A stretch of DNA of 64,000 nucleotides, taken from Candidatus Gastranaerophilales bacterium. Its GTDB lineage: Bacteria > Cyanobacteriota > Vampirovibrionia > Gastranaerophilales > Gastranaerophilaceae. The first letter of the stretch is position 1, and each line of letters starts with the position of its first letter. The notes under the pieces were generated by a model that was not told the origin of the DNA, made no database searches, and saw only the letters and a list, made by a program, of their open reading frames with translations. Shown piece by piece: positions 8,458 to 47,813 of this stretch. A program made the position numbers and the translations under genes. The stretch covers positions 1-64,000 of the forward strand of contig CALUQY010000003.1 of assembly GCA_944323035.1 (NCBI GenBank). The letters are read 5' to 3'.

Positions 8458-8474
8458 AATTTCATACCTCTCAA

Positions 8475-18979: not shown

Positions 18980-20686
18980 ATGACAGAGAGAAGAGAAGGT
19001 TTTTATATAGAATTATTAGACTTGTTGAAACAAGACCCTGAAAATAGATTTTATTCAGAAAATGGAAAAGACCTACTCAGAAACAAATTGTATGAATGTG
19101 CCATGAAAATGGATAAAGACTTAATTAAGTTACTTTTATCCAATGAAAAAATTAAAAACAAGTTTTTTACCGATGTAGATGGATTGCTTGTCTTCGATAA
19201 AACAGCTTTTGGATGGGCGATTAATAACAAAGCCTTTTTAAACGATTCATATACAAGATTTAAGAATACTATCGGTTTAATTGACAGCAACGAACAGTTT
19301 ATCTCTTCTAAAAACGATGTTGTATTATCCTTCCCATATAAAGATTGTGTGTTAGAAGGTGGGCAGACAAAAGAAGACCAAAAAAGAGATGAAATATACT
19401 ATAACGAATTATTAGCTCCTGATGATGTTGATAGATTGCTAGCTCCTAAAGTTTTTACTAATGCTAAAAAATATACAAAAGATGGTGAAGAAGTAGTAAC
19501 TTCTTTCAATGATGATGACAATTTACTTATTAAAGGTAATAATTTATTAGCATTATCATCAATACTGAAACGATATGAAGGCAAAGTTAAATGTATTTAT
19601 ATAGACCCACCTTATAATACAGGTTCCGACAGCTTTAAGTATAATGACAATTTTAATCACTCTAGTTGGTTAGTATTTATGAGAAATAGATTGCATTTGG
19701 CAAAAAAATTATTGACAGAAGATGGTTCTATTTATGTGCAAATTGATAATAATGAATTACATTATTTAAAAGTGTTGATGGATGAAATTTTTGGAAGTGA
19801 AAATTTTCAACGAGAAATAATTTGGGTATTAAAAGGTGTGTCAGGTTATAAGAGTCTCATACAGAATTTTGTTAGAGGACATGAAACAATCTTATTTTAT
19901 ACAAAATCCAAGAATTTTGTTTTCAACAAACTCTATTTACCATATAGCAAAGAGCAAATTGCTCGATTTTCAAGTATAGATGAAAATGGAAGAAAATATA
20001 AAACAATAACTAAAGACAGAAGACTATATTTAGATGAAGCAAAAGGTTTGCCAATTTCTGATGTGTGGGATGATATAGCTAGTTTTCAAACAGTTGTTAA
20101 TGCAGAAGAAATAACTGGTTTTGCAACACAAAAGCCTGAAAAGCTTATAGAAAGAATTATTAACGCTTCTACAAATGAAAATGATATTGTTTGTGATTTT
20201 CAGCTTGGAAGTGGAACTACTGCTGCAGTTGCACATAAACTAAATAGACAATGGATAGCAATAGAACAGATGGATTATATAAAGTCAATTACATCAAAAA
20301 GGCTTAAAAATGTTATAAATGGTGAACAAGGCGGTATATCTAAATCTGTAAACTGGCAAGGTGGTGGTAGCTTTGTCTATTGCGAACTAAAAGAACTTAA
20401 CAAAAAGTATATAGATGAAATAATGTCTGCGAATGATGATAAACTTATTGAATTGTATCCTCAAATCACTGAGTCAGAATTTATCAGTTACAAAGCAGAT
20501 ATTAATAAGTTAAAAGAAGGCATTGAAGATTTTAAACGATTGGAAACGGACGAAAAAAGACGTTTCTTGATAGAGATATTAGACAAGAACTTATTATATG
20601 TAAATTATTCTGATATTGAAGATGAAGACTTCTGTATATCAGAAGATGAAAAAGCCTTTACAAAAAGCTTTTATGGAGATGTGTAA
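18980..20686 (+). CDS. Type III restriction-modification DNA methyltransferase (Mod)
   Basis: 568 aa. Beta-class adenine methyltransferase order: catalytic DPPYNTG (residues 209-215) precedes the target-recognition region, and the AdoMet-binding FQLGSGTTAAVAHKLNRQWI lies near residue 410. The N-terminal 100 residues are typical of type III Mod proteins. It methylates the asymmetric recognition site and is needed for Res cleavage. The res gene starts on the next base after its stop. It is the first complete gene of element 1. AGGAGAG lies upstream of the ATG. Domain order and length are normal. Confidence 0.93.
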   Translation: MTERREGFYIELLDLLKQDPENRFYSENGKDLLRNKLYECAMKMDKDLIKLLLSNEKIKNKFFTDVDGLLVFDKTAFGWAINNKAFLNDSYTRFKNTIGLIDSNEQFISSKNDVVLSFPYKDCVLEGGQTKEDQKRDEIYYNELLAPDDVDRLLAPKVFTNAKKYTKDGEEVVTSFNDDDNLLIKGNNLLALSSILKRYEGKVKCIYIDPPYNTGSDSFKYNDNFNHSSWLVFMRNRLHLAKKLLTEDGSIYVQIDNNELHYLKVLMDEIFGSENFQREIIWVLKGVSGYKSLIQNFVRGHETILFYTKSKNFVFNKLYLPYSKEQIARFSSIDENGRKYKTITKDRRLYLDEAKGLPISDVWDDIASFQTVVNAEEITGFATQKPEKLIERIINASTNENDIVCDFQLGSGTTAAVAHKLNRQWIAIEQMDYIKSITSKRLKNVINGEQGGISKSVNWQGGGSFVYCELKELNKKYIDEIMSANDDKLIELYPQITESEFISYKADINKLKEGIEDFKRLETDEKRRFLIEILDKNLLYVNYSDIEDEDFCISEDEKAFTKSFYGDV

Positions 20687-23302
20687 ATGACTTTTTTGTT
20701 TGAAGAGATAAAAACAATAAGAGAATATGCTCCAGAAGCTTATAAAGAGCTTCCTAAATATGTTGTACAGAATCTAACACAAAAGTATCAAATAAGACCA
20801 TATCAAGAGCAAGCATTTAGAAACTTTATTACATACTTTGAAAATGATAGATTACGTCATAGACCTTCACAAGTCTTATTCCACATGGCTACTGGTAGTG
20901 GTAAAACCCTAATTATGGCAGGGCTTATTTTGTATCTATACAAAAAAGGCTACAGAAATTTTTTATTCTTTGTAAATGCTGATAATATTGTTCAAAAAAC
21001 TAAAGACAATTTCATTAACAGAACATCAAGCAAGTATCTTTTTAATGATGAAATTAATATAGATGGGCAGTCTGTGAAAATCCGAACTGTTGAAAACTTT
21101 CAAGATTGGAATAAAGACGATATTAATATCTGCTTTACAACAATACAAGGTTTGCACATGAGTTTAAATCAATTCAAGGAAAATGGCTTGACTGATGACG
21201 ATTTTGCTGAAAAGAAAATTGTGCTTATTGCTGATGAAGCCCATCACTTAAATGTTGAGACTAAAAAAGGTTTAACTAAAGGAGAGAGAGAGGATAAGAA
21301 TAACTGGGAAACAACAGTAAATAGAATTTTTAACTCTGATGTAGATAACGTATTGCTTGAATTTACTGCAACTTGTGATTTAAAGAATCCATATATTTTG
21401 AGCGAATATGAGAAGAAAATTATTGTAGATTATCCATTAAGAAAATTTAGGGAAGATGGATACTCCAAAGAAGTTAAAACATTACAATCGCATGTACCTC
21501 TTATAGATAGGGTTTTACAGGCTGTTTTGCTGAGTCAATATAGATTAAAATTATTCCAGGATAACAAGAAGCTTATAAAACCAGTCATTTTGTTTAAAAG
21601 TGATAAGATAGATACCAGTAAGAAATTCTATCAGGAAGAATTTAGACCATTAATTGATAACTTATCTGAATCAGATTTGTTAAGAATCAGAACACAAACT
21701 TCAAACCCTCTATTAGTTAAGATGTTTGAGTATTTTGGCACTCATACAACTAATGAACAACTTATTTCTGAAATAAAAGAAGATTTTTCTCATGAAAAAT
21801 GTATTTCAGTTAATAGTAAAGAAGACAAAGGAACATATCAGCTACTTATTAACTCATTGGAAGACCGTAATAATTTAATAAGATGTATCTTTGCGGTTGA
21901 CCAATTAAATGAGGGTTGGGATGTCCTAAATCTATTTGATATTGTTAGATTATATGAAACTCGAAGTGCGGAAAGACATGGTGGTCCGGGAAGACAGACA
22001 ATACAAGAAGCTCAATTAATAGGTAGAGGAGCAAGGTATTGTCCTTTTACGACAACCGATAAATCAGAAAGATTTTTGCGTAAGTTTGATGATGATATAG
22101 ATAATGAATTAAGAGTTTGTGAAACACTTTACTATCATTGCATGTATAATTCATTGTATATATCGGAATTAACAACAGCAATGAAGGGTATAGGATTATT
22201 ACCTGATAACATTAAAGAATGTTCTTATATCTTAAAGGAAGATTTTAAAAGAGATATTATTTACAATAATGGTTTAGTATTTGAAAATGAACGTGTTGTT
22301 AAATCCAGAAAACAAATTACAGAATTGTTGCCATCTGTTAGAACGAAAGATTATGAAATAGATTTATCTTCTGGAGCAACATCTATTGTAAATCTTTTAG
22401 CACCATCATCAGATGGGGTTAAAACATTAGAAAGAGTTTCTACTAAGTCTTTTACTATTGGACAAATAGCAGAAAGGAACTATTCGATAGTACATAAAGC
22501 ATTACGCCAGTTTAATATCTTTAAATTTGACATTCTACAACAATACTATCCTAATTTAAAATCAACAAAACAGTTTATAACAGATAGTAATTATTTAGGT
22601 AATATAAAGATTAACATCAAAATTAGTAATGATGAAATTACAAATGAACAGCTTTATATAGCCTGTAAACGAGTTGTAGAAAAGATTTCAAATAGTATTT
22701 CGGACATAGAAGAAACATTTGAAGGAACAAAAGAATTTAAACCTAGAAAAATATGTGACGTATTCAGAGATAAAACTGTTAGTTATACAGACCCACATGG
22801 AGATGGTCAAGGGGTATCTCAATCTCATGGAGCTATTTCTGAACATTTAAAAGTAAATTTACCAGATGAAGATTGGTTTGTGTTTACTGATAATTTTGGA
22901 ACAAGTGAAGAAAAAGAGTTTGTTGCATACTTTAAAGACCATGTTCAGGACTTAAAGAATAAATATGAAAAAGTATATTTAATTAGAAATGAAAGACAAT
23001 TAAAACTATTCTCGTTTAATGGTGGTGAAAGATTTGAGCCTGATTATGTTCTTATAATGACTAAGCAAAATGGAAATATAACAGACCAGTATCAAATCTT
23101 TATAGAACCTAAAGGCTCCCATTTAATACAAAAAGATAGTTGGAAAGAAACATTTTTGTTAGAAATTGAAAGCAGTGGTATCCCTGTTAAAACATTGGTT
23201 GATGATAACAATTATAAAATTATTGGCTTCCCATTCTTTAATAGAGCAGAAAGACAATCTCAATTTAACGAAGCAATGAATAATTTGTTAGTTGCTGAGT
23301 AG
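20687..23302 (+). CDS. Type III restriction enzyme helicase/nuclease (Res)
   Basis: 871 aa. SF2 helicase motifs: Walker A HMATGSGKTLIMA (near residue 67), DEAH in LIADEAHHLNVETKKG (near 183), EFTATCD (motif III) and the late motif EAQLIGRGARYCPF (motif VI). The C-terminal endonuclease domain shows FEPDYVLIM...QIFIEPKGSH, the D-(x)-ExK core (near residue 785). It forms the type III complex with the upstream Mod. All motifs look intact, so the system should be active. Confidence 0.93.
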   Translation: MTFLFEEIKTIREYAPEAYKELPKYVVQNLTQKYQIRPYQEQAFRNFITYFENDRLRHRPSQVLFHMATGSGKTLIMAGLILYLYKKGYRNFLFFVNADNIVQKTKDNFINRTSSKYLFNDEINIDGQSVKIRTVENFQDWNKDDINICFTTIQGLHMSLNQFKENGLTDDDFAEKKIVLIADEAHHLNVETKKGLTKGEREDKNNWETTVNRIFNSDVDNVLLEFTATCDLKNPYILSEYEKKIIVDYPLRKFREDGYSKEVKTLQSHVPLIDRVLQAVLLSQYRLKLFQDNKKLIKPVILFKSDKIDTSKKFYQEEFRPLIDNLSESDLLRIRTQTSNPLLVKMFEYFGTHTTNEQLISEIKEDFSHEKCISVNSKEDKGTYQLLINSLEDRNNLIRCIFAVDQLNEGWDVLNLFDIVRLYETRSAERHGGPGRQTIQEAQLIGRGARYCPFTTTDKSERFLRKFDDDIDNELRVCETLYYHCMYNSLYISELTTAMKGIGLLPDNIKECSYILKEDFKRDIIYNNGLVFENERVVKSRKQITELLPSVRTKDYEIDLSSGATSIVNLLAPSSDGVKTLERVSTKSFTIGQIAERNYSIVHKALRQFNIFKFDILQQYYPNLKSTKQFITDSNYLGNIKINIKISNDEITNEQLYIACKRVVEKISNSISDIEETFEGTKEFKPRKICDVFRDKTVSYTDPHGDGQGVSQSHGAISEHLKVNLPDEDWFVFTDNFGTSEEKEFVAYFKDHVQDLKNKYEKVYLIRNERQLKLFSFNGGERFEPDYVLIMTKQNGNITDQYQIFIEPKGSHLIQKDSWKETFLLEIESSGIPVKTLVDDNNYKIIGFPFFNRAERQSQFNEAMNNLLVAE

Positions 23303-25326: not shown

Positions 25327-26568
25327 TTATTTTTTCTCCTTGCCGTTCTCGGCGGTTTTTAGTATTAAAAATTCGTGTAATTTGCCTCTATTATTTAAGA
25401 GGTATTTAACATTTTTGCTTGTTATATCCGTTGCATTCGCTGGCATGCAGAGCAAGCCGTATTGCACGCCGTAAGACCTAAACAGGTTCAACAATTTGGC
25501 AATCTCCGACAACCTATGCTCTTTTAGTAGGCGTCCAACGCCTAGTTGAACAAGTAGTGTATCAAGTGCAATTGTCAAATGTGTAAAATTTGAAGGGCAA
25601 TTAACAATCCATGCTAGGTAATTTACAAATGTTGCTATTATAGGAGCTTGCTTAGTGGGCGGTAGTTGGCTGAAAAAGCCCATATTACGCCTAATTCGCT
25701 GTTTGATATGCTTGGTGATTAAAGCGGATTCAAAGGTTAAATCATCATCAATAATATTGAATTTATCAATAATAGAGTGACTTTGCAGTTCCTTTAATGC
25801 TTCATTTATTACAATGTCTTTTCTTTTGTGTTTTCCCTGAAATACAAGCCCCTTAAGGAATTGAGGGTAATTAACAAGGTAAACATCGCAATATGTATTG
25901 TCGATAACTGCGCTGCTGTGCGTCATTGCTTGCAATAAATGCTCAAGCAGAATGTGTGCATTCATTGATAATACGGTCTTTCCGAGCTTAGCGGATAATG
26001 CCAAAGGCATATTGTACAGCGGTTTTAATTTGTTTATTTGGTAGAAATTATCTTTATTCTCTACAACCTTTTTGGTTGTTTCTTCAATAAAATCAAGTAT
26101 TTGCGGTGTTAATTGAGGTAAATTAGACAGTTTATAATCTCCCCAATCGGGGCAAAATTTAGGCATATTGTATTTATTAAATAAAGAACCTTGACAGGTG
26201 TAAACGCCTATTATCCCTTCATTTTCAAGGTTTTCAAGGTTATTAAAAGTTTCTTCATCAGTTGAAGAAAAATAATAAACGTACATGCCTGTAAACGGCT
26301 CAAACGCCCACAATGTGGGAAGATTGAGCAGTTTAAATAACAAAGTATTGCACACCAAGCAGGTGCATGGGTTAGAAGGATACATTAATCCTAAGTATTG
26401 CTTACCTTCTAAATAGTCCAAGACGCACGCTGTACTTGCGTTTGTGTGGACATTTGTTAATGTTTCCTCAAGGACAATATCGAATATAAAACCAGGTTTT
26501 CGCCCTTGATTAAGCTTCTTTTCCTGCTTCTGCCGATAATCGGCTTGGTTAAAAGTTTTTTTGACCAT
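25327..26568 (-). CDS. Candidate replication initiator of element 1 (family not recognised)
   Basis: 413 aa from ATG 26568. The frame opens at a TTG at 26601, but the ATG is preferred. A Cys pair (CTCLVC) lies near residue 80 and the rest is a helical protein with basic C-terminal segments (TKHIKQRIRRNMGFF, LLNNRGKLHEFLILK). I recognise no Rep, RepA or relaxase motif. The reason for the call is position: it is the largest minus-strand gene of a plasmid-like element and lies next to six iterons at 26970-27112, with structured leader DNA between. It could instead be an unrelated maintenance protein. Confidence 0.5.
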   Translation of the reverse strand: MVKKTFNQADYRQKQEKKLNQGRKPGFIFDIVLEETLTNVHTNASTACVLDYLEGKQYLGLMYPSNPCTCLVCNTLLFKLLNLPTLWAFEPFTGMYVYYFSSTDEETFNNLENLENEGIIGVYTCQGSLFNKYNMPKFCPDWGDYKLSNLPQLTPQILDFIEETTKKVVENKDNFYQINKLKPLYNMPLALSAKLGKTVLSMNAHILLEHLLQAMTHSSAVIDNTYCDVYLVNYPQFLKGLVFQGKHKRKDIVINEALKELQSHSIIDKFNIIDDDLTFESALITKHIKQRIRRNMGFFSQLPPTKQAPIIATFVNYLAWIVNCPSNFTHLTIALDTLLVQLGVGRLLKEHRLSEIAKLLNLFRSYGVQYGLLCMPANATDITSKNVKYLLNNRGKLHEFLILKTAENGKEKK

Positions 26569-26969
26569 TGTTTTATCATTCCTCTTTTTCACTACGAACA
26601 ATTTAAAATGTAATAATTTAAAATGAATAAAATTAAAAAGGTAATTAACTTAATAATTACCTTTATTGTTCGTTTATTGGAATGACCAAACGGTCTTAAA
26701 TTCTTGGGAAAGCTGGGATACCCAGCTTTTGTTTTTGTCGTCAATTTAAAATATAATATATTGGAGATTTATATTTATTCTTCTAAATAAGATACACAAA
26801 GTGGGAGTATCTCTAATCCCTTGGGAAAGCGGGTTTATCCAGCTTTTGTTTTTGTCGTCTAAAGAAAAATAAAAATAAATAAACAATAGTTAAACAATAG
26901 ATAAACAATAAATAGGAGCTTTAATATTAGCCTTTAATGTAATAAATATAAGGCTTTTGAGCTTTTAAA
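26569..26969. other. Leader of the candidate rep gene with three hairpins, two terminator-like
   Basis: Hairpin 1: AAAGGTAATTA (26637-26647) / TAATTACCTTT (26654-26664). Hairpin 2: AAAGCTGGG-ATA-CCCAGCTTT (26709-26729) followed on the plus strand by TGTTTTTG. Hairpin 3: a variant, AAAGCGGG...AGCTTT (about 26825-26846), also followed by TGTTTTTGTCGTC. Hairpins 2 and 3 are within a direct repeat of about 39 bp (26704- and 26820-) and are oriented as plus-strand terminators although the gene is on the minus strand. This is the arrangement expected of antisense copy-control RNAs. Confidence 0.55.
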
Positions 26970-27112
26970 ATTGCAGAATGGTAACAAGTAAATTGCACTA
27001 TAGTAACAATTTGATTGCAACAAGGTAACAGTAGAATTGCACGTTGATAACAAGTAAGTTGCACAATGGTAACCTGTTTTAGCTTAAAAATTGCAGAATG
27101 GTTACTTTTTTA
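26970..27112. repeat. Iteron array, probable replication origin of element 1
   Basis: TTGCA starts at 26971, 26993, 27015, 27037, 27059 and 27091. The first five are exactly 22 bp apart and the sixth 32 bp further on. The consensus unit is ATTGCANNATGGTAACAAGTA, with GTAACA the best conserved core after TTGCA. Regular spacing of two helical turns is the hallmark of iteron-type plasmid origins. AT-rich DNA flanks it. Confidence 0.8.
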
Positions 27113-27139: not shown

Positions 27140-27391
27140 TTACTTAAAAAAGGGGAAACGTTTTTTCATCATCATTGCTTCGGATTCTTCTTCATGATTT
27201 AAAATTAAGTCTAATTCTTCTTGGGGGTTTTCTGCATTTACTATTCTTTTTGCTTCTAAAAGATAAGCTGCTCCATTTTTAAAGGTTGCTACCAGATTAT
27301 GGACGAAACAGTCCCAAAAATCGGTATTTGGTTCCTCATCGCTATTGGCTATATTGTCTGTATTTACTTTAAAATCTGGCTCTTTTTTCAT
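27140..27391 (-). CDS. Small acidic protein divergent from the large serine recombinase
   Basis: 83 aa from ATG 27391 (MKKEPDFKVNTDNIANSDEE). The frame opens at 27442, but that start would lie inside the recombinase gene. It is acidic and ends in MMMKKRFPFFK. It is not recognised. Its start codon lies in the same 32-bp palindrome as that of the recombinase, and TATAAT lies 6 nt upstream, so the mRNA is probably leaderless. It may control recombinase expression, but it has no obvious DNA-binding motif. Confidence 0.6.
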   Translation of the reverse strand: MKKEPDFKVNTDNIANSDEEPNTDFWDCFVHNLVATFKNGAAYLLEAKRIVNAENPQEELDLILNHEEESEAMMMKKRFPFFK

Positions 27392-27414
27392 GCTATAATT
27401 ATAGCATGAAAAAA
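27383..27414. promoter_or_regulatory. 32-bp perfect palindrome: overlapping divergent promoters with both start codons
   Basis: The centre is CATGCTATAATTATAGCATG, flanked by T6 on the left and A6 on the right. TATAAT on the plus strand is 27394-27399 and its mirror on the minus strand is 27403-27398. The ATGs at 27406 (+) and 27391 (-) each begin 6 nt after their -10 box, where transcription would start. Neither gene has a Shine-Dalgarno box. The two promoters share bases, so they should exclude each other. Confidence 0.75.
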
Positions 27415-29157
27415 ATTGCAATTGCTCAATGTCGTGTATCAAAAGGCGATAAAGCTGAAATTGAAAATTCCTTGAGAAGCCAGCAGTCGGAAATCCTTGT
27501 TCTTGCCGAAAAGTTAGGAATAAAAGAAGAGCAAATTGACTGGTTTATAGAGGAAGAAGCTAGGTCATCATACCAAGAAAGGGCAAATTGGAATCCTTTT
27601 GAGGATAAAATAGATGAAGCTTGCAATAATCCTAATATTTGTTATTTTTTAGCCTATTCTCAGGAGCGATTTTGTCGAAATAGCCGTAGGTCTAAACTAT
27701 ACAAAGATAAATTACGCAGTAACGGAATTGAAATTAGATTTGTAAGTGGTGATGTGGAAGACCCTAATAGCGATGGGGGTTATTGGCAAGAGGGTATACA
27801 AGAACTTGTTGCGGAAGGTTATAGTAGAAAAGTCAGCTCAGATACCTTGAGGGGTTGTAAACAAACAGCTCGTACAAGAGACCCTGAGACTGGATATGTG
27901 TATAAAAATGGTGGTACTGCTCCTTTTTGGTTGATACCAGTTAAAAAGGTTATTGGTACAAATCAATATGGAAAAGCAATAACAAAAACCATATGGGATA
28001 AAAATAAAAATATCTATACTGCTAAATATAATGGACAAGAAATAAGCAAAACGATGTGGGATTGGGGGAAATATATATTTTTAGAACTTAGGTTAAATCA
28101 AGCAAAATCTCTTGACGAAATTGTTGATTTTATCAATAAAATTGGATTACCAGTGAGCCGTAATTGTGCATTTGCGAGAGCAAATACTTTATCATCTCAA
28201 CTTACGAACGAATGCTTATATGGGGTATCCATATATAACAAGCGTTCATTTAAAGGAAAAACAAAATCTGTATTAAATCCTGAAAAGGAATGGATTATAG
28301 AAGAAAATGCAATGCCAGCACTTGTAACAAAAGAGCAATTCGACTTATTGCAAGAAATATCAAAGAAAAAGGCACGCAAAATTGGTAATACATCAGCAAA
28401 TACGACTAACAATAAATTACTAGTTAATATACCTGATAAATTCTATTGTGCAAATTGTAGAGCTAAAATTATATCATCAGGTAAACATTACGTATGTTCC
28501 AATTATAACAGTTATGGGCGAAAAGGTTGTGGGGCTTCTAGTTTCTATGTAAACAGCGAATGGCTAGACTCGAAACTTGAAAAGGAAATAATTAAATTAA
28601 TACTCAATGAAAAAACTACTCAAGCATTATATGACCAGTATATAAATAAGTATGGGAAAAAAGTAGATATGGATAACAACAAAGTTGATATATCAGACCT
28701 ACAAAAAGACTTGAAGAAGAAAAAACAAGAAGAAGCTAATCTCTTAAATGTAATTGCAAGTGGAAATATTATGGACGCAGCATTGAATTCTATAACATCC
28801 AAGCTTAATACAATTTCAGAAGAGATAAAAACATTAGAAGCTCAAATTGATAATAATAACAAGCCTAGCAGATATAAAATTCTAACCTACGATTACCTCA
28901 AACAACTATGCCATGAGGGTTCTAAGCTATTAACCCATAGTTCCTTAGCTGAAAAAAGAGCATTTATTGAAAAATGTATTGAGTCTGTAACCCTTGACCC
29001 TGTTAGAAAATCGGTAAATGTAAAGTTTAATATTAACCCATTTTGGACGTCTTTGGAAAAACCTAAAAAGACTAAAAAACTGGAAGCTTCTAAGCTTGAA
29101 ACTTCCAGTGAAATGGTTGCGGGAGCTGGATTTGAACCAACGACCTTCGGGTTATGA
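27406..29157 (+). CDS. Large serine recombinase (integrase of element 1), C-terminus encoded by tRNA sequence
   Basis: 583 aa. Resolvase domain (IAIAQCRVSKGDKAEIENSL with catalytic Ser; YSQERFCRNSRRSKLYK), recombinase domain (about residues 160-330), zinc ribbon (FYCANCRAKI...YVCSN...KGCGASSF, about 345-385), coiled coil (about 420-480) and a beta region ending VNVKFNINPFW. The last 14 residues, MVAGAGFEPTTFGL, are the translation of the tRNA-fMet 3' half, not recombinase sequence. The att core lies in frame at codons 570-574, and on the circular element the frame would continue into 18632-18882. There is no Shine-Dalgarno box. It probably starts as a leaderless message from the palindromic promoter. 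Confidence 0.9.
   Translation: MKKIAIAQCRVSKGDKAEIENSLRSQQSEILVLAEKLGIKEEQIDWFIEEEARSSYQERANWNPFEDKIDEACNNPNICYFLAYSQERFCRNSRRSKLYKDKLRSNGIEIRFVSGDVEDPNSDGGYWQEGIQELVAEGYSRKVSSDTLRGCKQTARTRDPETGYVYKNGGTAPFWLIPVKKVIGTNQYGKAITKTIWDKNKNIYTAKYNGQEISKTMWDWGKYIFLELRLNQAKSLDEIVDFINKIGLPVSRNCAFARANTLSSQLTNECLYGVSIYNKRSFKGKTKSVLNPEKEWIIEENAMPALVTKEQFDLLQEISKKKARKIGNTSANTTNNKLLVNIPDKFYCANCRAKIISSGKHYVCSNYNSYGRKGCGASSFYVNSEWLDSKLEKEIIKLILNEKTTQALYDQYINKYGKKVDMDNNKVDISDLQKDLKKKKQEEANLLNVIASGNIMDAALNSITSKLNTISEEIKTLEAQIDNNNKPSRYKILTYDYLKQLCHEGSKLLTHSSLAEKRAFIEKCIESVTLDPVRKSVNVKFNINPFWTSLEKPKKTKKLEASKLETSSEMVAGAGFEPTTFGL
29079..29109 (-). terminator. Element-encoded terminator for tRNA-fMet inside the recombinase gene
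   Basis: ACTGGAAG (29079-29086) pairs with CTTCCAGT (29102-29109), followed on the minus strand by TTTTTTAG. It lies directly beyond the tRNA 3' end copy and would end tRNA transcription when element 1 alone is inserted. On the plus strand it encodes the recombinase tail KLEASKLETS. Confidence 0.6.
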
Positions 29158-29158
29158 G
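29111..29158. repeat. Attachment repeat: displaced 3' half of tRNA-fMet
   Basis: 48 bp identical to 47891-47938, running from 3 bp beyond the tRNA CCA end to just past the anticodon, and ending where the anticodon-stem sequence diverges (GG here, CC in the tRNA). This is the usual crossover region of tyrosine integrases in tRNA genes. It is both the left end of element 2 and the right end of element 1. Confidence 0.92.
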
Positions 29159-29493
29159 GGGCTTTTTGGGACAAAAAACTTCGTAAAAACTTATTTCACA
29201 CTATTTCATAAATAGCCTAAAAATTAATATTTACAATATCTCAACAGATATTCTGTTTAATCAATATTTCACTTTAATCAATTATGATTTTTATAATTAT
29301 GGGAACAAAATGGGAACAATTTAAAAGACTGAAAATGCTTGTTAAATCATCAATACACTATATAACTTTTTTATTACTTTATTACTTTTGAATAAAACAG
29401 ATATTATAGGTAAATAAGCATAAACATTTTGATTAGTAATAAAAATGTTAGAATTTCGTAATAAGTAATAAAACTTTTTGTTTATCTAAAAAA
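29159..29493. other. Left end of element 2, non-coding, with paired arm-site-like repeats
   Basis: TGGGAACAA occurs at 29300-29308 and 29311-29319, 11 bp apart, as in the pair near the right end (47814, 47825). The remainder is AT-rich without a credible gene. The minus-strand KAP gene ends at 29494 and its terminator is not obvious. Confidence 0.6.
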
Positions 29494-30858
29494 TTACTCA
29501 TTATAATCAAAATTATTAATGAATTTTATCTTAGTCGGATAATTTTGTAAATATTTTGCCTGTTCATCTATATTTTTCGAAATAGTTCTTGTCAAAAATG
29601 TATTTAAACGGCCTGCATTATGTCTTTCCGTATTTCTATCGATTGAATCACTACGATTATAACCTCTCACTTCAGGAATATATGTATTTAAGAACATGCC
29701 ATTAAATAATGGAAAAATTTTATTAATTTCTAGAAATATATTAGATTGTTTTAAATAAATATAATTATCAAATTCATTTATATCATACATGGCTAAGGCA
29801 TTTAACAGTAGAGAAGGTTCAACTAATAATACATCTTTTTTCGAAAGTATATTTAAAAATAAATTAAATCGCATGAAAAACTTTTCAATATCTCTTGCCG
29901 AAAAATTTAAAATAATTATGATTTTTGCAATAAAACTACTTAAATACATCTGCTCTTTTTCATAATCAGGAACTTGATATGTTGCGTAGGAAACAGACTT
30001 ATATTGTAAGTTATAATTGTAATATCTATCACTTTTTATGAATTTGTCAATTTTATCCCACAAATTATGCAAATGGTAATGTATTAACTCTTCATTAGAG
30101 TTATCAGGCAGTTGAAAATCGACATCTATAAATTTTCTTAAATACCCATTGACATCTCCATCATTTGTTCCAAAGATTCTTTTTACAGAATTTTCTAGTT
30201 GTTTTTTGTCAACAGATAAGACAAAAATTATATTAGAAATTCCAAATAAATGTTTTACAATTTCAAGAGTTTTGATTGCATACATAGGATTACAGCGGTC
30301 AAGTTCATCAACAAATATTATAATCTTTTTCCCAAGTTTTTCTTGAATACTCTTTAGCTTACTTTTAAAACTTCTTATTTCGTTTTTAAGTTCGTTATAT
30401 TCAGAATCAATCATTTTTTTAGAAGGGTCAAAATTCGCAGAACAATTTAATACCCCAAAATTTACGCCAATTTGAAGAGAAGTTTTTTCACAAATTTTTT
30501 TTGCAAATTCTTTACTTTTCTGTATCTCTTCTTCAAGTTGAGTTTTTAAATCATATTCTTCTAGTTTTGCAAATAATTCAACTAATAAAGGAATAATCGG
30601 TTTATCATAAAAATCAGACTCCCACGCGTTATATAAAATATTTATTGAATCATCTTGCATCAACTTAATCAAATTTTCAATAAAATATGTTTTACCACCA
30701 CCCCATTGAGCAGAAACGCTAAAAACATTTAAATCTGTGTTTAGCAAAACATTTTTAAAATTTTCAGCTACAGTCTTTCTATTTAATTTATCATCAGCAA
30801 AGGGTTCTGTTGTTTGAACGACTTCTTTATTATTTTGCATTTCAATTTCATCTGCCAT
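29494..30858 (-). CDS. KAP-family P-loop NTPase
   Basis: 454 aa. Walker A SAQWGGGKTYFIENL (near residue 50), Walker B with the KAP signature IIIFVDELDRCNPMYAIKTLEI (near 185), and sensor region IIFVLSVDKKQLENSVKRIFG. There is no membrane insertion of the kind seen in some KAP proteins. KAP ATPases are frequent in defence islands and mobile elements, with few assigned mechanisms. It stands alone at the left end of element 2, the usual place for cargo. Confidence 0.85.
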   Translation of the reverse strand: MADEIEMQNNKEVVQTTEPFADDKLNRKTVAENFKNVLLNTDLNVFSVSAQWGGGKTYFIENLIKLMQDDSINILYNAWESDFYDKPIIPLLVELFAKLEEYDLKTQLEEEIQKSKEFAKKICEKTSLQIGVNFGVLNCSANFDPSKKMIDSEYNELKNEIRSFKSKLKSIQEKLGKKIIIFVDELDRCNPMYAIKTLEIVKHLFGISNIIFVLSVDKKQLENSVKRIFGTNDGDVNGYLRKFIDVDFQLPDNSNEELIHYHLHNLWDKIDKFIKSDRYYNYNLQYKSVSYATYQVPDYEKEQMYLSSFIAKIIIILNFSARDIEKFFMRFNLFLNILSKKDVLLVEPSLLLNALAMYDINEFDNYIYLKQSNIFLEINKIFPLFNGMFLNTYIPEVRGYNRSDSIDRNTERHNAGRLNTFLTRTISKNIDEQAKYLQNYPTKIKFINNFDYNE

Positions 30859-30901
30859 AGCTACTCCTTATTAAATAATTTTACCATGAATATAATTATG
30901 C

Positions 30902-30913
30902 TATAATAAACGC
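30902..30913 (+). promoter_or_regulatory. -10 box of the HigB-like gene, leaderless configuration
   Basis: TATAAT (30902-30907) is followed by 6 nt and then the ATG at 30914. No Shine-Dalgarno box is present. The divergent KAP gene starts 55 bp away. Confidence 0.6.
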
Positions 30914-31267
30914 ATGGCAAAGCGAACAGAGGCATTGGAAGTATATTTTTACAAGACAAGTTCTGGTAATGAACCTGTGAGAGAATGGCTTAAAGATTTA
31001 CCGAGAGAAGATAAGCGTACAATCGGCTTTGATATCAAAACTGTTCAATACGGTTATCCTATTGGTATGCCTTTGACAAGAGTTTTGCATGGCACAAATG
31101 GCTTAGAAGAAGTCCGCAGTAATGTATCAAACGGGATTGCAAGAGTTATCTTCTATGTTGAAGATAATACAATGGTGCTTTTGCACGCATTCATCAAGAA
31201 AAGTCAAAAGACACCGCAAAAAGATTTAGATGTTGCTATCAAACGCTACAAAGAATTATGCAAATGA
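30914..31267 (+). CDS. HigB/RelE-like toxin (Gp49 family)
   Basis: 117 aa. It begins ALEVYFYKTSSGNEPVREWLKDLP, with the later core GIARVIFYVEDNTMVLLHAFIKKSQKTP typical of the phage Gp49/HigB family, whose members cleave mRNA at the ribosome. The likely partner is not downstream on the same strand. The XRE-type antitoxin candidate is convergent and overlaps its 3' end by 12 nt. Confidence 0.85.
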   Translation: MAKRTEALEVYFYKTSSGNEPVREWLKDLPREDKRTIGFDIKTVQYGYPIGMPLTRVLHGTNGLEEVRSNVSNGIARVIFYVEDNTMVLLHAFIKKSQKTPQKDLDVAIKRYKELCK

Positions 31268-31540
31268 TAGTACAATTCTTTTACCTAAGTATTTAGCAAC
31301 TTTTTCCATTGTATTCAATGTTATTGAAGTATTTTCGGGGTCTAAAATACGACAGATAGCTGTCCTTGAAGTTTCAAGTTCTTTTGCTAAGCGATTTACT
31401 GAAATATTATCTTCAAGCATTTTTTGTTCTAGTGCGTAAGCAATAACTCTTTTTATTGCAACAGCTTCTGACTCTTGAAGCATATCTTCTTCTTCAAGAA
31501 AACTGTCAAAACTGGTGCCTAAGTGTTTTTTATCAATCAT
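31256..31540 (-). CDS. XRE/HigA-like antitoxin, convergent with the toxin gene
   Basis: 94 aa. Helix-turn-helix in the C-terminal half: ISVNRLAKELETSRTAICRILDPENTSITLNTMEKVAKYLG. The N-terminal part (SFDSFLEEEDMLQESEAVAIKRVIAYALEQ) fits the HigA-type antitoxin region. AAGGAT is upstream of the ATG. Its own palindromic operator lies at 31568-31589. The 12-nt tail-to-tail overlap with the toxin gene would make the two mRNAs antisense to one another. Confidence 0.8.
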   Translation of the reverse strand: MIDKKHLGTSFDSFLEEEDMLQESEAVAIKRVIAYALEQKMLEDNISVNRLAKELETSRTAICRILDPENTSITLNTMEKVAKYLGKRIVLSFA

Positions 31541-31567
31541 TTTTAATCATCCTTTTCTTATATTTAT

Positions 31568-31589
31568 ATTGTACCAAAATTGGTACAAT
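31568..31589. promoter_or_regulatory. Palindromic operator of the XRE antitoxin gene
   Basis: ATTGTACCAA-AA-TTGGTACAAT is a perfect inverted repeat 28-49 bp upstream of the ATG at 31540. On the minus strand TACAAT lies in its proximal arm and could be the -10 box, so binding would autorepress. Confidence 0.7.
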
Positions 31590-31835
31590 ATTTCAACCCC
31601 TGTGTCATAAATTTGTTAAAAAGCCTTAAAACACAGTTAAAACAAATATGTACAGGGTACTTTATTCCAAATATAATAATAAAAATGGCTATTTTAGGCA
31701 CTTTTGAATAATAAAAACAGAATTGCTGAATCCAGAATAAACGAGATTAAACGGAAACAGTATTTTAAATATAAATATATATATAATTCAAGAAAGTTCA
31801 ACAAGTGTCAATCTCGTATTAGCAGAGGTATTTTT

Positions 31836-32588
31836 ATGGAAAAGATATATTATTTAAAAGAATTTATGGCAAAATTGCAATCATTAGACCGTTCAAGAAG
31901 TTTAACGATAGTGTTTAAAGACTTTTTAACACTATGCACCTGTTCATTAGCACAGACGATTTACAGAAGTGATGAATTAGAACAAAAATACCTACAAACA
32001 ATAAAACAATATACAAAAGAGCAAGCAGAAGAATTTTCAAAACTGCTTGCTCTTTTAGTTATGGCATTGGAAGAAAAGTATCAAGACTTTTTAGGCGAAA
32101 TTTTTATGCGGTTGAATTTAGGCAATTCTTCTATTGGTCAGTACGAGACACCTTACACAGTAAGTAAATTTATGGCAGAAATAAATTTCTCAGAACTCGA
32201 AATTTCTCAAAAGATTGCGAATAATCACCTGATAACACTTTCAGAACCTTGTTGCGGAAGCGGTGGAATGATTATAGCTTTTGCAGAAACAATGAAAGAA
32301 CATAATTTTAATTATCAAAAACACTTGTATGTTGAGGCGATTGATATAGACGAGATGAGCTTTATGATGGCATACATTCAATTAACACTGCTTGGAATAC
32401 CTGCAAAAGTAATACAAGGCGACACTTTGACATTGAAATTTCGGCATGTGCTTTATACACCGTTTTATTTTCTGAGCGGGATTGAGTATAAACTTCAAAA
32501 AATCAATACTAACAACAAACATGAACTTATTGAAACAAAAAATAACAATCAAAAACAGAATATGCAGTTACAGCTATTTCAACTATGA
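31836..32588 (+). CDS. N-6 DNA methylase-like protein without a catalytic NPPY motif
   Basis: 250 aa from ATG 31836 with AGAGG upstream. The frame opens earlier at 31704 without support. The AdoMet-binding motif I is clear, LSEPCCGSGGMIIAFAE, and DIDEMSFMMAYIQLTLLGIPA matches the next strand and helix of HsdM-type methylases. At the catalytic position it reads LYTPFYFL instead of NPPF/Y. Such proteins are common on gut mobile elements. DNA methylation activity is doubtful. It is the first gene of an operon with a DnaC-like ATPase. Confidence 0.78.
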   Translation: MEKIYYLKEFMAKLQSLDRSRSLTIVFKDFLTLCTCSLAQTIYRSDELEQKYLQTIKQYTKEQAEEFSKLLALLVMALEEKYQDFLGEIFMRLNLGNSSIGQYETPYTVSKFMAEINFSELEISQKIANNHLITLSEPCCGSGGMIIAFAETMKEHNFNYQKHLYVEAIDIDEMSFMMAYIQLTLLGIPAKVIQGDTLTLKFRHVLYTPFYFLSGIEYKLQKINTNNKHELIETKNNNQKQNMQLQLFQL

Positions 32589-32637
32589 CTAATTCTGACA
32601 TAGGTATATATCATAATAAAAATACAAGGAACATGAT

Positions 32638-33114
32638 ATGGAAAAACATCACTGGTACAAATTAAAGAAAAGGCTAAAAGATATTATGGCTCAGAACTTA
32701 AATATATCTTTTAATTATAGCCCTCTAAGAAAGAAAACGAACCGGAGTGAAATAACTTTAAGATTTTTTCAAGTAAAACTCGATGATGAAATAATCTGGC
32801 AATTTCCGGAAGATACAAATCAAGTTATAGATGAAAATTTCATATACGGACAAAGTAAATTTGATAACCAGTATATCAATTTAGAATTCCCGATACAGTC
32901 AATAATAGCATATCTTAATTTACCTAAAGAAAAAGTGTTTAACTATGAAGATAAAGCAGGAATCGCAGAGATTTTAAAAGTTTGTGATAAAAGAATTGGG
33001 TACAATCGCCTAAAAATATTGAAATTATCGCATGCAGGAACAAAAATTTTTGAAAAAAGATTTAACCGTAAAAGAGACTTGAAAGGAAAGTATAATGAAA
33101 GAACTACCTTGTGA
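32638..33114 (+). CDS. Uncharacterised protein upstream of the DnaC-like gene
   Basis: 158 aa, not recognised. The N-terminus is basic (WYKLKKRLKDIM), the middle is beta-like and the C-terminus is basic (KIFEKRFNRKRDLKGKYNE). It overlaps the DnaC-like gene by 20 nt, which suggests a linked function such as helicase loading or origin recognition. A degenerate copy of its C-terminal coding region lies at 34565-34632. Confidence 0.65.
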   Translation: MEKHHWYKLKKRLKDIMAQNLNISFNYSPLRKKTNRSEITLRFFQVKLDDEIIWQFPEDTNQVIDENFIYGQSKFDNQYINLEFPIQSIIAYLNLPKEKVFNYEDKAGIAEILKVCDKRIGYNRLKILKLSHAGTKIFEKRFNRKRDLKGKYNERTTL

Positions 33115-33835
33115 AGATTTATTCGTCTTATCTAGAAATTATAGAGCCATTTTTGACAACTACATAGCTAAAACAGAAGCTGATGAACTCTGGGAAAAAA
33201 CTAAAGATTTCGATAAAGTAGATAAATTTTGTGAAAGAATAAAGCTGAAACAAGAATCAGCATTGCTACTGAAAAAATCAAATATCCATAAACGTTTTAT
33301 TGACAAAAAATTTAATAATTTTAAAACATTTGATGAAATCACTAAATCAGCAAAACAATCAGCAGTAGACTATGCGGAAAATATTTATGCTCATTTAGCT
33401 TTTGGTACCAACCTTGTTATTGAAGGTTTAGGGAAAGTCGGAACAGGAAAAACGCATTTAGCCTGTGCGATTGCTCATTATGCAATAGAACATGGTGTTC
33501 CAACGAAATTTATTAATGTTGTGTCAATGATATCTGAATTAAAAGAACGGATGAGTATTCCAAAATATATAAGAACATATACAGATACAGATTTATTAAT
33601 TATTGATGACATTGGTAAAGAAAAAAATTCTGAATGGGTATGCCAAACAATTTATCAGATTATAAATATTCGTTATGAAACACAAATGCCCACAATTATT
33701 ACAACTGAAAACTCAATGAAAAATATGACAGCTCATTATAAAGAGAAAGGTAAAGCAATTCAAAGCAGAATTACAGAAAACTTTGTCTTAATAACACTTA
33801 ATGGAAAAGATTACAGACAAAAAGGAACAATATAG
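33095..33835 (+). CDS. DnaC/IstB-like AAA+ ATPase (helicase loader type)
   Basis: 246 aa. Walker A GLGKVGTGKTHLACAIAHYAIEHGV (near residue 113-122), Walker B LLIIDDIGKE, and IITTENSM...IQSRITENFVLI (sensor and Arg finger), as in DnaC loaders. The Walker A loop has an extra residue relative to GxxGxGKT. It likely helps load a replicative helicase on the mobile element. AAGGAAAG precedes the ATG and the next gene overlaps its stop. Confidence 0.85.
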   Translation: MKELPCEDLFVLSRNYRAIFDNYIAKTEADELWEKTKDFDKVDKFCERIKLKQESALLLKKSNIHKRFIDKKFNNFKTFDEITKSAKQSAVDYAENIYAHLAFGTNLVIEGLGKVGTGKTHLACAIAHYAIEHGVPTKFINVVSMISELKERMSIPKYIRTYTDTDLLIIDDIGKEKNSEWVCQTIYQIINIRYETQMPTIITTENSMKNMTAHYKEKGKAIQSRITENFVLITLNGKDYRQKGTI

Positions 33836-34245
33836 TGGAACTGGCTACTAATATATTTAATGAAAAAGGTGAACACAGGTTAGAACACTTAAAGAAAGTG
33901 ATTCGAACAGAAGTCAAAATCGACTTTTGGGAAGAATCAGTAAAAATCTATGTTACCATTCCGCAAGCAAACAGACAAAATGAAAATTCTGAAAACAAGC
34001 TGATAGGAAATGTTGTAAACGGCAGAATAAGACAAATAGTTGTTTTTAAAAGATTTAAAGTGTCAGAAGATTTTTCTGCCGTAACTATAGACAATTATGA
34101 CTGGTATATACCTGTATTTTTCAACAGAGAAGCACTAAAACAGCAAGATACAAAAACGTGGGAAATGCTATTTTATTACATTTTCAAGCAAGAAGTTAAT
34201 GAAGCGATACAAAAAGCAAAAACAATGTTAAATTCAAAAGGTTAA
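33835..34245 (+). CDS. Uncharacterised protein downstream of the DnaC-like gene
   Basis: 136 aa from a GTG whose first base is the last base of the preceding stop codon. It is not recognised. Beta-rich segments (KIYVTIPQANRQ, GRIRQIVVFKRFKV) precede a helical C-terminus (WEMLFYYIFKQEVNEAIQKA). Strict coupling to the DnaC-like gene suggests a role in the same process. Confidence 0.65.
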   Translation: MELATNIFNEKGEHRLEHLKKVIRTEVKIDFWEESVKIYVTIPQANRQNENSENKLIGNVVNGRIRQIVVFKRFKVSEDFSAVTIDNYDWYIPVFFNREALKQQDTKTWEMLFYYIFKQEVNEAIQKAKTMLNSKG

Positions 34246-34249
34246 TTAT

Positions 34250-34549
34250 ATGAAACAGATTTTTATAATTTTAGTTTTATTTTTATCAATACAAACAGTA
34301 CAGGCTCAACCAATGGTTGTTCAAGAGCAAAAGTTGAACAATGGAGAAATTGTGCGTATGTGTGCGTTTGATACTGGTAATTATGGCTATTGTACACCTG
34401 AAGATGAATACAAGGCTGTTAATGCTTTCCAAAATTCAAAGCAACAGACTAAGTTACAGAAGTTTAATACAGGAGTAAATAATACAGTGAATACAATAAA
34501 TACTCTGCTCGATGGTATAAGAGTTATAGGCAGTTATTTCGGAATATGA
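34250..34549 (+). CDS. Small secreted protein of unknown function
   Basis: 99 aa with a signal peptide (MKQIFIILVLFLSIQTVQAQ). The mature part has two Cys (MCAFDTGNYGYCTPEDEYK), which could form a disulfide, and a helical tail. Last gene of the operon. A secreted product next to a replication operon suggests an envelope function of the element, such as entry exclusion, but this is speculation. Confidence 0.65.
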   Translation: MKQIFIILVLFLSIQTVQAQPMVVQEQKLNNGEIVRMCAFDTGNYGYCTPEDEYKAVNAFQNSKQQTKLQKFNTGVNNTVNTINTLLDGIRVIGSYFGI

Positions 34550-34564
34550 CCAAAAATGACTTGG

Positions 34565-34632
34565 TATACCTTGTAGGAACAAAGATTTTTAATAAAAGAT
34601 TTAAGAGCAAATTAAAAACAAATGATTCATAA
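34565..34632 (+). pseudogene. Degenerate fragment of the C-terminal coding region of the 32638 gene
   Basis: One frame reads VGTKIFNKRFKSKLK, matching AGTKIFEKRFNRKRDLK at the end of the 158-aa protein encoded at 32638-33114. About 40 bp are clearly related at the DNA level. There is no start codon with a ribosome-binding site, so it is a remnant of a duplication. Confidence 0.5.
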
Positions 34633-34666
34633 AATTAAAAGATAAAGATTATAAGGAGTAGAATAA

Positions 34667-35896
34667 ATGAAAAATAAGAAATTACCAAAGAAAATTAAAG
34701 AAAATTTCATATTTGACTATACTAATTTTTTTATCGGGGAAGATTATTGTTATTGTTCTGTTAAAAATGGTAATTGGTGTGGCGAACTTGATATTAACGG
34801 CAAGCTTCATAGTAAATTTGTTTGCAAAGAGTTATGTTGTAGTGATACTTTTGACTATATAACAATTTTGGATAAAACAGGAGTTATAGATAAAAGAGGA
34901 AATTTTATTATTCCGCCCAAATATGATGATATCTGGATGATTAATGAAAATCTTTGGAAAATTTCCGTAAATGAAAAATATGGCTTAATTGATACTTGTT
35001 GCCAAACAGTTTGGAATTTGAAATATGATTCAATAAATACTTTATGTGTTGAAGGAGCTTATTTGGTTTCTTTAAATGGCAAATATGGCATAATTGATAT
35101 AAATGAAAAGGAAATTGTGCCTATAAAATATGATTATTTGCAAGCGCAATTTGAATATGCAAAAAGCAATCGTTTTTATGCAACACTCAACGGAAAAAAA
35201 GGAGTAATAAATTTAAAAAATGAAATAATAATTCCAATTGAATATGAAGATATTTATTATCTTACAAAAAATCGAATCGTTCTTAAAATTGGGCTCGATA
35301 GATTTATAATTATAAATGAACAAAATAAGCAAATATGTAAAACTATTTTTGAAGTAATAGATACAAAGACCTATTTTAGCAAAAATCCAACATTATATTC
35401 TGCAAAGTTAAATGGCAAATGGGGCTTTATTGATAAAAATGGGAATGTAGTAATTGATTTTAAATACACACATACATATAACATTTTAGGTAGCGACGAG
35501 AAATACATAGGTGTTTCTATCGATAAACTGAATACAAACACTTTGGGACTTATTGATAAAGATGAAAATCAAATTTTACCTTTTGAATATGAATTTCCAT
35601 ATTTAGCTTACATTGATAATGACAGATTTATTGTTTCAAAAAATGGAAAATGCGGAATAATTGATAGAAATAATAATGTAATTGCTAATTTTATATTTGA
35701 TGATATTTTTCCAATTTGTTTGGCGAAATCTGAAGTAAAACAATATTACCAAGCGAGAGTAGATGACAAATACGGTTTTATAGATAGAGATGGAAAACCT
35801 TTACATATAGACAAAGAAAGCTTGAATATTTCTGAAACAGAATTAAACCTTGAAATGCTTTCAATGATTGAACAGATAAAGTATTTATTTTCATAA
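34667..35896 (+). CDS. WG-repeat protein
   Basis: 409 aa made of about eight to ten repeats of the WG type, each with a G-[KLV]-[IW]-[GD]-hydrophobic-I-D core followed by a x-I-P-x-x-Y-D strand, e.g. EKYGLIDTCCQTVWNLKYDS, GKYGIIDINEKEIVPIKYDY and GKWGFIDKNGNVVIDFKYTH. There is no signal peptide. WG-repeat proteins are widespread in gut bacteria and their role is mostly unknown. AAGGAG lies upstream. The 3' end overlaps the convergent recombinase gene by 6 bp. Confidence 0.85.
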   Translation: MKNKKLPKKIKENFIFDYTNFFIGEDYCYCSVKNGNWCGELDINGKLHSKFVCKELCCSDTFDYITILDKTGVIDKRGNFIIPPKYDDIWMINENLWKISVNEKYGLIDTCCQTVWNLKYDSINTLCVEGAYLVSLNGKYGIIDINEKEIVPIKYDYLQAQFEYAKSNRFYATLNGKKGVINLKNEIIIPIEYEDIYYLTKNRIVLKIGLDRFIIINEQNKQICKTIFEVIDTKTYFSKNPTLYSAKLNGKWGFIDKNGNVVIDFKYTHTYNILGSDEKYIGVSIDKLNTNTLGLIDKDENQILPFEYEFPYLAYIDNDRFIVSKNGKCGIIDRNNNVIANFIFDDIFPICLAKSEVKQYYQARVDDKYGFIDRDGKPLHIDKESLNISETELNLEMLSMIEQIKYLFS

Positions 35897-36454
35897 ATCT
35901 AAACTCAAATACACATCATCCATTTCATCTTGCGTAATTCCTATGTAGCGGAGAGTAACGCTGGGTGATGAGTGATTGAACAGCTTTTGAATTAACGTTA
36001 TGTCATAGCCGTTGTTGTAGGCATGGTAGCCAAAAGTCTTTCTTAGTGTATGAGTACCGATTTTTTCTTTTATTCCGACTGATTTTGCAACATCATTAAT
36101 AATTTTATATGCCTGTTGCCTCATTAAAAAGCCTTTATTCTTACGTGATATGAATAAAGGCTCGTTTTCGTTATATTCTCTTGTCTTTAAATATTCTTTC
36201 AGTGCTGATTTTGTACTGTTTGATAGCGGAAAATCCTTGAACTTATTTGTCTTTTTCTCTCTTAGTCGTATTCTGTCTTTTATTTTACCTTTGTCACTAA
36301 TATCTGATATTCTAAGTTTAAGTAAATCGCTTATTCTAAGGCCGGAGTTTATTCCAAGAACAAATAAACAGTAGTCACGTAAACTTTGTTGTTTCAACAA
36401 TTTCTTGATAGTATCAATCTGTTTTACATCTCTGATAGGCTGTACAAATTCCAT
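35891..36454 (-). CDS. Short tyrosine recombinase (catalytic domain only)
   Basis: 187 aa. Catalytic residues are visible: Arg in GINSGLRISDLLKLRISDI, HTLRKTFGYHAY (HxxR), and the late His and Tyr in LFNHSSPSVTLRYIGI. The N-terminal core-binding domain of full integrases is nearly absent. Such short enzymes are found as orphan recombinases, for example in DNA inversion, and on mobile elements. It is in addition to the full-length integrase at 45617. Its target site is not evident. AGAGG lies before the ATG. Confidence 0.85.
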   Translation of the reverse strand: MEFVQPIRDVKQIDTIKKLLKQQSLRDYCLFVLGINSGLRISDLLKLRISDISDKGKIKDRIRLREKKTNKFKDFPLSNSTKSALKEYLKTREYNENEPLFISRKNKGFLMRQQAYKIINDVAKSVGIKEKIGTHTLRKTFGYHAYNNGYDITLIQKLFNHSSPSVTLRYIGITQDEMDDVYLSLDL

Positions 36455-36791
36455 TTTTAACCTCTTTCTATGGCTGAAATGCAGTTATAATCAATATTAC
36501 ATAATATATTTATATTATAAATTATGTATTATTCTATGTACACCCTAATATTTACAAGGGTTTACAAGGTTATTGAAGTTTAATCGAGATAATAAACAGA
36601 GGTATTTTTACGAATGATACAAAATATAATTATGTATCATTCAAACAAAGCCTAAAGCATACTAATTTGCACGTTTTACGAGAGACGACAAAGAATTTTT
36701 AGAATAAACATAGTGGAATTTTAGCAGATAATTAAATATAAAATATAATAAATACATCTGAAAGTTTAATCAGATTAATTCTAGAATCACT
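36455..36791. other. Non-coding AT-rich region with an operator-like inverted repeat
   Basis: GAATGATACA (36612-36621) and TGTATCATTC (36633-36642) form a perfect inverted repeat whose 11-bp centre contains TATAAT (36625-36630). It looks like an operator over a promoter. The plus-strand transcript would meet no gene until 37130. On the minus strand the recombinase gene is 160 bp away. No gene is supported in this stretch. Confidence 0.45.
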
Positions 36792-37007
36792 CTAGTCAAA
36801 CTCAAACAAACATTTTGCAGGAATTTCAAGAGCTTCGGCTATTTTAAAAATCATTTTTAAATTCGGATATTTTTCAGAACGTTCAATTTTCCCGATATAA
36901 GATAGGTCACAGTCAACTAATTCAGCCATTTTGCCTTTGCTGTAATTTTTAAGCTCTCTATATTTCTTAACATTTTGAGCAAATTGCTTGCAATAATTTT
37001 CTGTCAT
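36792..37007 (-). CDS. XRE-family regulator
   Basis: 71 aa, one helix-turn-helix domain: QFAQNVKKYRELKNYSKGKMAELVDCDLSYIGKIERSEKYPNLKMIFKIAEAL is the complete XRE fold. It is divergent from the 37130-40645 gene cluster and may repress it. The 5' region is AT-rich with several possible -10 boxes. Confidence 0.85.
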   Translation of the reverse strand: MTENYCKQFAQNVKKYRELKNYSKGKMAELVDCDLSYIGKIERSEKYPNLKMIFKIAEALEIPAKCLFEFD

Positions 37008-37129
37008 ATTTATATTGTGCTATAATACTTGCATCCTATTATAGACCTAAAGTCTAATAATAAATTTTGTTACGACAAGTTTTGACGGAGTCGTATGATA
37101 AACTGTTGGTAAAAATGAAAGGCGGTGTT

Positions 37130-37429
37130 ATGGCAATTAAAGAAGCTAAGCAAAGCGGAAGTAGTGTACTGGTAAAATGCGGAAATTCTACACAGCAGTT
37201 TTCAGGTACATTAATCGGTTACACTTCAAACGCTGTATTTATTCAAAGTGGCAGAAATCTGCATGTATTTGTTGAACGCAACGGAAATGTTGTAACGAGT
37301 GGAGTTCAAATTCCACTAAGCGGTAACGAAGATATCAGAATGTACGGAAATCAAGTAGGTATCAAAAAAGGCTCAACAATTCATTTGTATAGTGCAGATG
37401 GCAAACCTGCAGGAACAAGACCGGCATAA
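37130..37429 (+). CDS. Small beta-rich protein of unknown function
   Basis: 99 aa from ATG 37130 with AAAGGCGG upstream. The frame is open from 37067. It is beta-strand rich with Gly turns (VLVKCGNSTQQFSGTLIGYT, VFIQSGRNLHVFVERNGNVV). There is no signal peptide or known motif. It lies 18 bp ahead of a PD-(D/E)XK-like gene, with which it should be cotranscribed. Confidence 0.65.
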   Translation: MAIKEAKQSGSSVLVKCGNSTQQFSGTLIGYTSNAVFIQSGRNLHVFVERNGNVVTSGVQIPLSGNEDIRMYGNQVGIKKGSTIHLYSADGKPAGTRPA

Positions 37430-37447
37430 GAGAAAGGAGTTAGAATT

Positions 37448-38479: not shown

Positions 38480-38555
38480 ATTTGTTTAAAATAAGCACAA
38501 CTATGACCCATTTTGTCGTAGTTGTGCTTTATTATAATTATAAAAGAGGTCGAAC

Positions 38556-40645: not shown

Positions 40646-40684
40646 TTATATGTTTATTTTAATTATTTACATTACAATATAATT

Positions 40685-45299: not shown

Positions 45300-45306
45300 A
45301 AACGTA

Positions 45307-45342: not shown

Positions 45343-45399
45343 AAACCCTTATAATACTTTCAGACAAATAGTAATAAAGTAATAAAAAGGAGATAAATA

Positions 45400-46708: not shown

Positions 46709-46713
46709 GTTTG

Positions 46714-47802: not shown

Positions 47803-47813
47803 ATAATCTCCTT

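Follow-up and report, generated by a model that had tools for sequence, protein, structure and literature searches.

The analyzed window, a stretch of 64,000 nucleotides from the 1.94-Mb genome of a member of Gastranaerophilaceae, carries a gene for a large serine recombinase of 583 aa (27406 to 29157, plus strand) and a divergent gene for a conserved acidic partner protein of 83 aa (27140 to 27391, minus strand), with the start codons at 27406 and 27391 as the original prediction had them. The recombinase contains the resolvase N-terminal (PF00239, 4.9e-08) and Recombinase (PF07508, 6.2e-13) domains that place it among large serine recombinases, matches PHROG 95 (integrase), and has its nearest homologues in Gastranaerophilales MAGs. 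The 83-aa protein had no family match in Pfam or PHROG, and no DNA-binding domain was recognized in it. It was identified in 4 of 191 family genomes, every time beside this recombinase, and 13 columns are invariant across an alignment of 8 sequences. AlphaFold modeled it as three helices, with low confidence (pLDDT 71, pTM 0.41). Going by position only, our guess would be a recombination directionality factor.

Both gene starts lie within a perfect palindrome of 32 bp (16+16; 27383 to 27414), TTTTTTCATGCTATAATTATAGCATGAAAAAA, which is its own reverse complement and holds overlapping -10 boxes together with both ATGs, exactly as predicted. The plus strand reads TATAAT (27394-27399), 6 nt, and ATG at 27406, and the minus strand reads TATAAT (27403-27398), 6 nt, and ATG at 27391, an order also given by the original prediction, which overlooked the TG extension of both -10s. 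Each strand thus carries TGCTATAAT-N6-ATG, an extended -10 followed by a start codon. The extended -10 (TGC TATAAT) of the recombinase spans 27391 to 27399 on the plus strand, and that of the 83-aa gene spans 27398 to 27406 on the minus strand, so that the 2 hexamers overlap by 2 bp on opposite strands, as in bidirectional promoters, and the T at 27391 (-15 of the recombinase promoter) forms a base pair with the first base of the minus-strand ATG. A TTGACA-like -35 at a spacer of 15-19 was absent on both sides of the palindrome, another point that the original prediction overlooked, and both boxes are therefore read as extended -10 promoters. The 20 bp that we regard as the functional core (27389-27408; CATGCTATAATTATAGCATG) also recurs in other genomes, and the symmetry reaches beyond it to 32 bp because both proteins begin with M-K-K (ATGAAAAAA). 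Only 3 perfect gapless palindromes with arms of at least 15 bp were identified in 464 kb of the window's genome, and the 20-bp motif was expected 0.09 times in dinucleotide-shuffled windows with 3 mismatches permitted.

That a serine recombinase gene adjoins the palindrome would fit an att or res site of this enzyme, but the attachment core, the 3' half of a tRNA-Met (29114 to 29157, minus strand, from tRNA overlap), lies at the opposite end of the recombinase gene, where it encodes the C-terminus MVAGAGFEPTTFGL, and the 20-mer is also present at non-mobile gene pairs. The tRNA-Met is intact at the recombinase 3' end in 5 relatives (L009, L011, L013, L014, and L020), which puts the attachment core there rather than at the palindrome. 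An intrinsic terminator was likewise rejected: on either strand, the inverted repeat has the T-run before it and the A-run after it, opposite to the order in a terminator. We consider either role, att/res site or terminator, hardly credible.

The original prediction proposed looking for the same palindrome before the recombinases of related elements. The core is identical to the window's in L009 and L011, whereas L010 and L012 have CATGTTATAATCATATCATG, in which the symmetry is lost while both -10s and both ATGs are retained; the L014 counterpart is CATGATAAAATTATAACATG. The small gene retains its -10, N6, and ATG in L013 and L020 as well, and there the recombinase is preceded by an extended -10 of its own and a GAGG (Shine-Dalgarno) leader, showing that these two genes can do without a shared promoter. 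A 45% homologue of the recombinase in another genome (G032) has a different context, without the small gene.

Recurrence of the 20-bp design at other gene pairs

A strict-core scan of 146 genomes recovered the recombinase pair and a phosphopantetheinyl transferase/methyltransferase pair (names assigned by reading the sequences rather than by a family search), the latter likewise with the 2 ATGs inside the box. The pattern CATGNTANNATNNTANCATG was identified in 45 of 239 family genomes and 14 of 41 genera, with the reversed control at 0 throughout, and the 109 Cyanobacteriota genomes scanned from outside this family had none. One genome, G169 (genus g49, 1.5 Mb), had 17 motif copies, and 21 with a looser form (control 0). 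We also observed that the 21 divergent pairs of G169 with a 14-bp gap (L102-L116) far exceed those of other genera.

ORFs of at least 50 aa began at both ATGs in 48 of the 58 distinct sites read, a proportion conditional on the search motif, which fixes the -10 positions, and one from which the overall fraction of divergent promoters with this design does not follow; of the 91 IMG/VR sites matching this motif, just 6 had ORFs at both ATGs. Conservative clustering of the 48 two-ORF sites resulted in 22 pair types, including gltX, with pairs confirmed by Pfam comprising ispG/metallophosphoesterase, obgE/tsaD, dnaX/LD-carboxypeptidase, rarA/mtnA-type, and TPR/YibE. For IspG, ObgE, and the metallophosphoesterase, the Pfam matches begin at residues 1-3. 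At unchanged geometry, 2 different partners were seen for the phosphopantetheinyl transferase gene, and likewise for rarA.

Start-codon gaps of divergent genes in G169 were 14 bp in 13 of 95 pairs, with every other value occurring at most twice, a spike whose height is inflated because match-bearing contigs were sampled and the choice of start codons favored those with a -10. The sample totaled 661 kb, the first part avoiding match-bearing contigs and the second adding them, and approximately 400 kb came from contigs known to have matches. The whole-genome count for G169 (21 versus 0 in the control) is independent of contig and start-codon selection. Across 96 oriented windows, C at -1 and G at -14 each had a frequency of 0.98, partly set by the search pattern, and with the looser pattern, in which CATG is not required, CATG was present at both ends in 17 of 21 G169 sites. 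No -35 consensus was identified across the motif sites.

The original prediction further held that any dimeric repressor bound to the palindrome would shut both genes; the 83-aa protein and the recombinase itself are the conceivable candidates for such a repressor. The two-fold symmetry, perfect across 32 bp, and the conserved small gene beside it are what such an operator has in its favor. However, only 4 of the 48 20-mers are perfect palindromes, and complementarity at the free positions is at about the chance level across the 48 sites (observed versus expected: positions 5/16, 9 vs 12.4; 9/12, 20 vs 19.6; 8/13, 24 vs 18.2). Symmetry beyond the promoter consensus is not maintained across homologous sites, in contrast to a palindromic operator, and L010 and L012 are asymmetric yet keep both promoters. 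With complementarity close to chance and symmetry broken in these 2 relatives, the repressor claim found no support, and we regard an operator as quite unlikely.

The leaderless signature in Gastranaerophilaceae

We analyzed the distance between -10 boxes and start codons in retrieved stretches of genomes, along with pattern counts in whole genomes, to obtain the genome-scale figures given here. The window's genome has 24 occurrences of the pattern TGNTATAATN6ATG, against 0 for the reversed control, and 15 family genomes have 18-38 each (controls 0-2); elsewhere in the class, it was moderately frequent in some members of one other family (f44) and close to the control in most of the rest. In 464 kb of the window's genome and 265 kb of G169, the distance from near-consensus -10 hexamers to candidate ATGs peaked at precisely 6 nt, with 27 at spacer 6 in the former (most other spacers about 3-16) and 36 in the latter (about 0-13), and with 14 and 22, respectively, when TGn was required. 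In the 661 kb of G169, a -10 box at spacer 6 or 7 was identified in 136 of 587 genes, versus 13-33 at control spacers, and roughly one-fifth of genes therefore look leaderless. In both the recombinase and the 83-aa gene, 6-7 nt separate the end of the -10 box from the start codon. No literature on leaderless genes in Gastranaerophilales or Melainabacteria was found, and novelty is judged within the literature consulted.

Conventional leadered transcription would instead put the promoters within the opposite genes, with each mRNA carrying a leader antisense to the other gene and the -10-like symmetry arising by coincidence. This is very unlikely given the spacer-6 peak and the TGn conserved in unrelated pairs, the restriction of the motif to a family with the leaderless signature, and a space between the ATGs that is too short for any Shine-Dalgarno sequence.

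A proposed bidirectional promoter for two leaderless mRNAs

Judging from the sequence evidence, we put at about 80% the probability that the palindrome is a minimal bidirectional promoter giving 2 leaderless mRNAs. RNA polymerase would recognize the extended -10 (TGnTATAAT, without a -35) in both orientations and would initiate 7 nt downstream of its last T, at the A of each ATG; the recombinase ATG falls at this predicted +1. With each start 7 nt past the last T of its own -10, the 2 starts would be 15 bp apart. The +1 A of each gene would pair with the -15 T of the opposite TGn motif and the C preceding each ATG with its G, and because these pairings interlock, the start-codon gap would be fixed at 14 bp. 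The symmetry would thus be that of 2 identical promoters and not that of an operator. In the window, the promoter would co-express the integrase, which belongs to an element that integrates at tRNA-Met, with the small partner protein, presumably at roughly equal basal strength. The earlier claim of one shared symmetric promoter, with both mRNAs starting at their first codons, gains indirect support from the family-wide leaderless signature and the repeated architecture.

The wider proposal, which we consider likely, is of a lineage-specific architecture of Gastranaerophilaceae, in which a 20-bp near-palindrome (CATGnTAnnATnnTAnCATG) would serve as the complete promoter and start-codon pair of 2 divergent leaderless genes, each start codon being part of the opposite extended -10, with partners exchangeable and the geometry kept. 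Bidirectional promoters and leaderless mRNAs, each already known, would be united in one stereotyped 20-bp element that recurs in a non-photosynthetic sister lineage of cyanobacteria. The geometric rule that the start codon of one gene is the extended -10 of the other predicts both transcription and translation starts from sequence alone for dozens of genes, housekeeping genes included.

The founding paper on bacterial bidirectional promoters is reportedly that of Warman et al. in Nat Microbiol in 2021. In such promoters, divergent starts are 7-25 bp apart and the -10s overlap on opposite strands, with a preferred start spacing of 18 bp in Escherichia coli and Salmonella, where 10 and 23 bp are common too (PMC10268837; PMC12825309). 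The 18-bp geometry pairs -7T and -11A reciprocally and sets the +1 A opposite a -18 T (PMC10268837). The element described here resembles these promoters in its overlapping opposite-strand -10s, its basis in symmetry, and the steric overlap of the polymerases, but its predicted spacing is 15 bp, with the +1 A coinciding with the -15 T of the extended -10, a layout analogous to the 18-bp interlock that works via the extended -10. The -7 and -11 positions do not coincide here, the 18-bp spacing being a preference in the literature and no requirement. Further, the divergent RNA is often antisense and non-coding according to the Salmonella paper in this literature (PMC10268837; PMC12825309), whereas here both RNAs would be mRNAs, both predicted leaderless, with a stereotyped 14-bp start-codon gap. 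In bacterial leaderless genes, TANNNT precedes the start codon at a distance of about 12 bp (BMC Genomics 2011, PMC3160421), and the genes described here are like them in having the -10 at -12 from the ATG, an optional TG extension in low-GC genomes, and no Shine-Dalgarno sequence. That study treats leaderless genes singly, whereas 2 leaderless promoters would interlock here.

The original prediction interpreted this arrangement as a built-in exclusive switch between integrase and partner, with only one polymerase able to open the DNA at a time. Under such a switch, the mutually excluded polymerases would make the 2 genes alternate, perhaps with feedback from the 83-aa protein. Steric exclusion is unavoidable at a 15-bp start spacing, as the polymerase footprints must overlap, and since both -10s are full consensus with TG, occupancy could suffice for competition. 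Steric exclusion carries no memory. Gene pairs without any switching logic (ispG, obgE/tsaD, dnaX, rarA, and others) share the geometry, the 83-aa protein has no recognized DNA-binding domain, and the 2 promoters are separated in relatives L013 and L020. In E. coli, 5 of 5 bidirectional promoters tested were without interference at basal activity, and interference emerged upon strong activation of one side, so that making one such promoter strong brings out competition (PMC12825309). With housekeeping pairs using the design and the E. coli RNAs uncoupled at basal activity (PMC12825309), the claim of an exclusive integrase/partner switch was left unsupported; such a switch is unlikely, and the palindrome is probably not one. 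The housekeeping pairs argue for compact co-expression, and the bidirectional promoter looks like lineage-wide promoter packing rather than a special device for this integrase. The sites also offer near-perfectly symmetric natural templates for asking if polymerases compete at a shared promoter.

Other features of the element and the window

In the window, the recombinase end holds only the 3' half, and the intact tRNA-Met is split off to 47894-47970, which would fit the insertion of a second element at this site. The apparent second element lies in the interval flanked by the recombinase gene's 3' end and the intact tRNA-Met (29114-47970), as a tandem integration at one tRNA, and includes genes for a KAP NTPase, a RelE-like toxin with an HTH partner, an IstB-like ATPase, and a tyrosine integrase. 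The RelE-like toxin gene (30914, plus strand) likewise has TGCTATAAT-N6-ATG (30899-30916) and is predicted to be leaderless; this 18-mer was found identical in 2 other genomes (G001 and G052).

Five direct repeats (TTGCA...GTAAC), mostly 22 bp apart and iteron-like, occupy 26966-27110, between the 83-aa gene and the gene for an uncharacterized 414-aa protein (25327-26571, minus strand). The repeats suggest a plasmid-like origin within the element, and the 414-aa protein is a possible replication initiator. Apparent type III restriction-modification genes at 18980-23302, with a DNA methyltransferase at 18980 and a helicase/nuclease at 20687, are possibly part of the same element. A second TATAATTATA palindrome (ATGGTATAATTATACCAT) was identified at 8473-8492, upstream of a pilin-like gene at 8457 (minus strand) that has a Shine-Dalgarno leader (GAGAGG), and it may represent a leadered bidirectional promoter.
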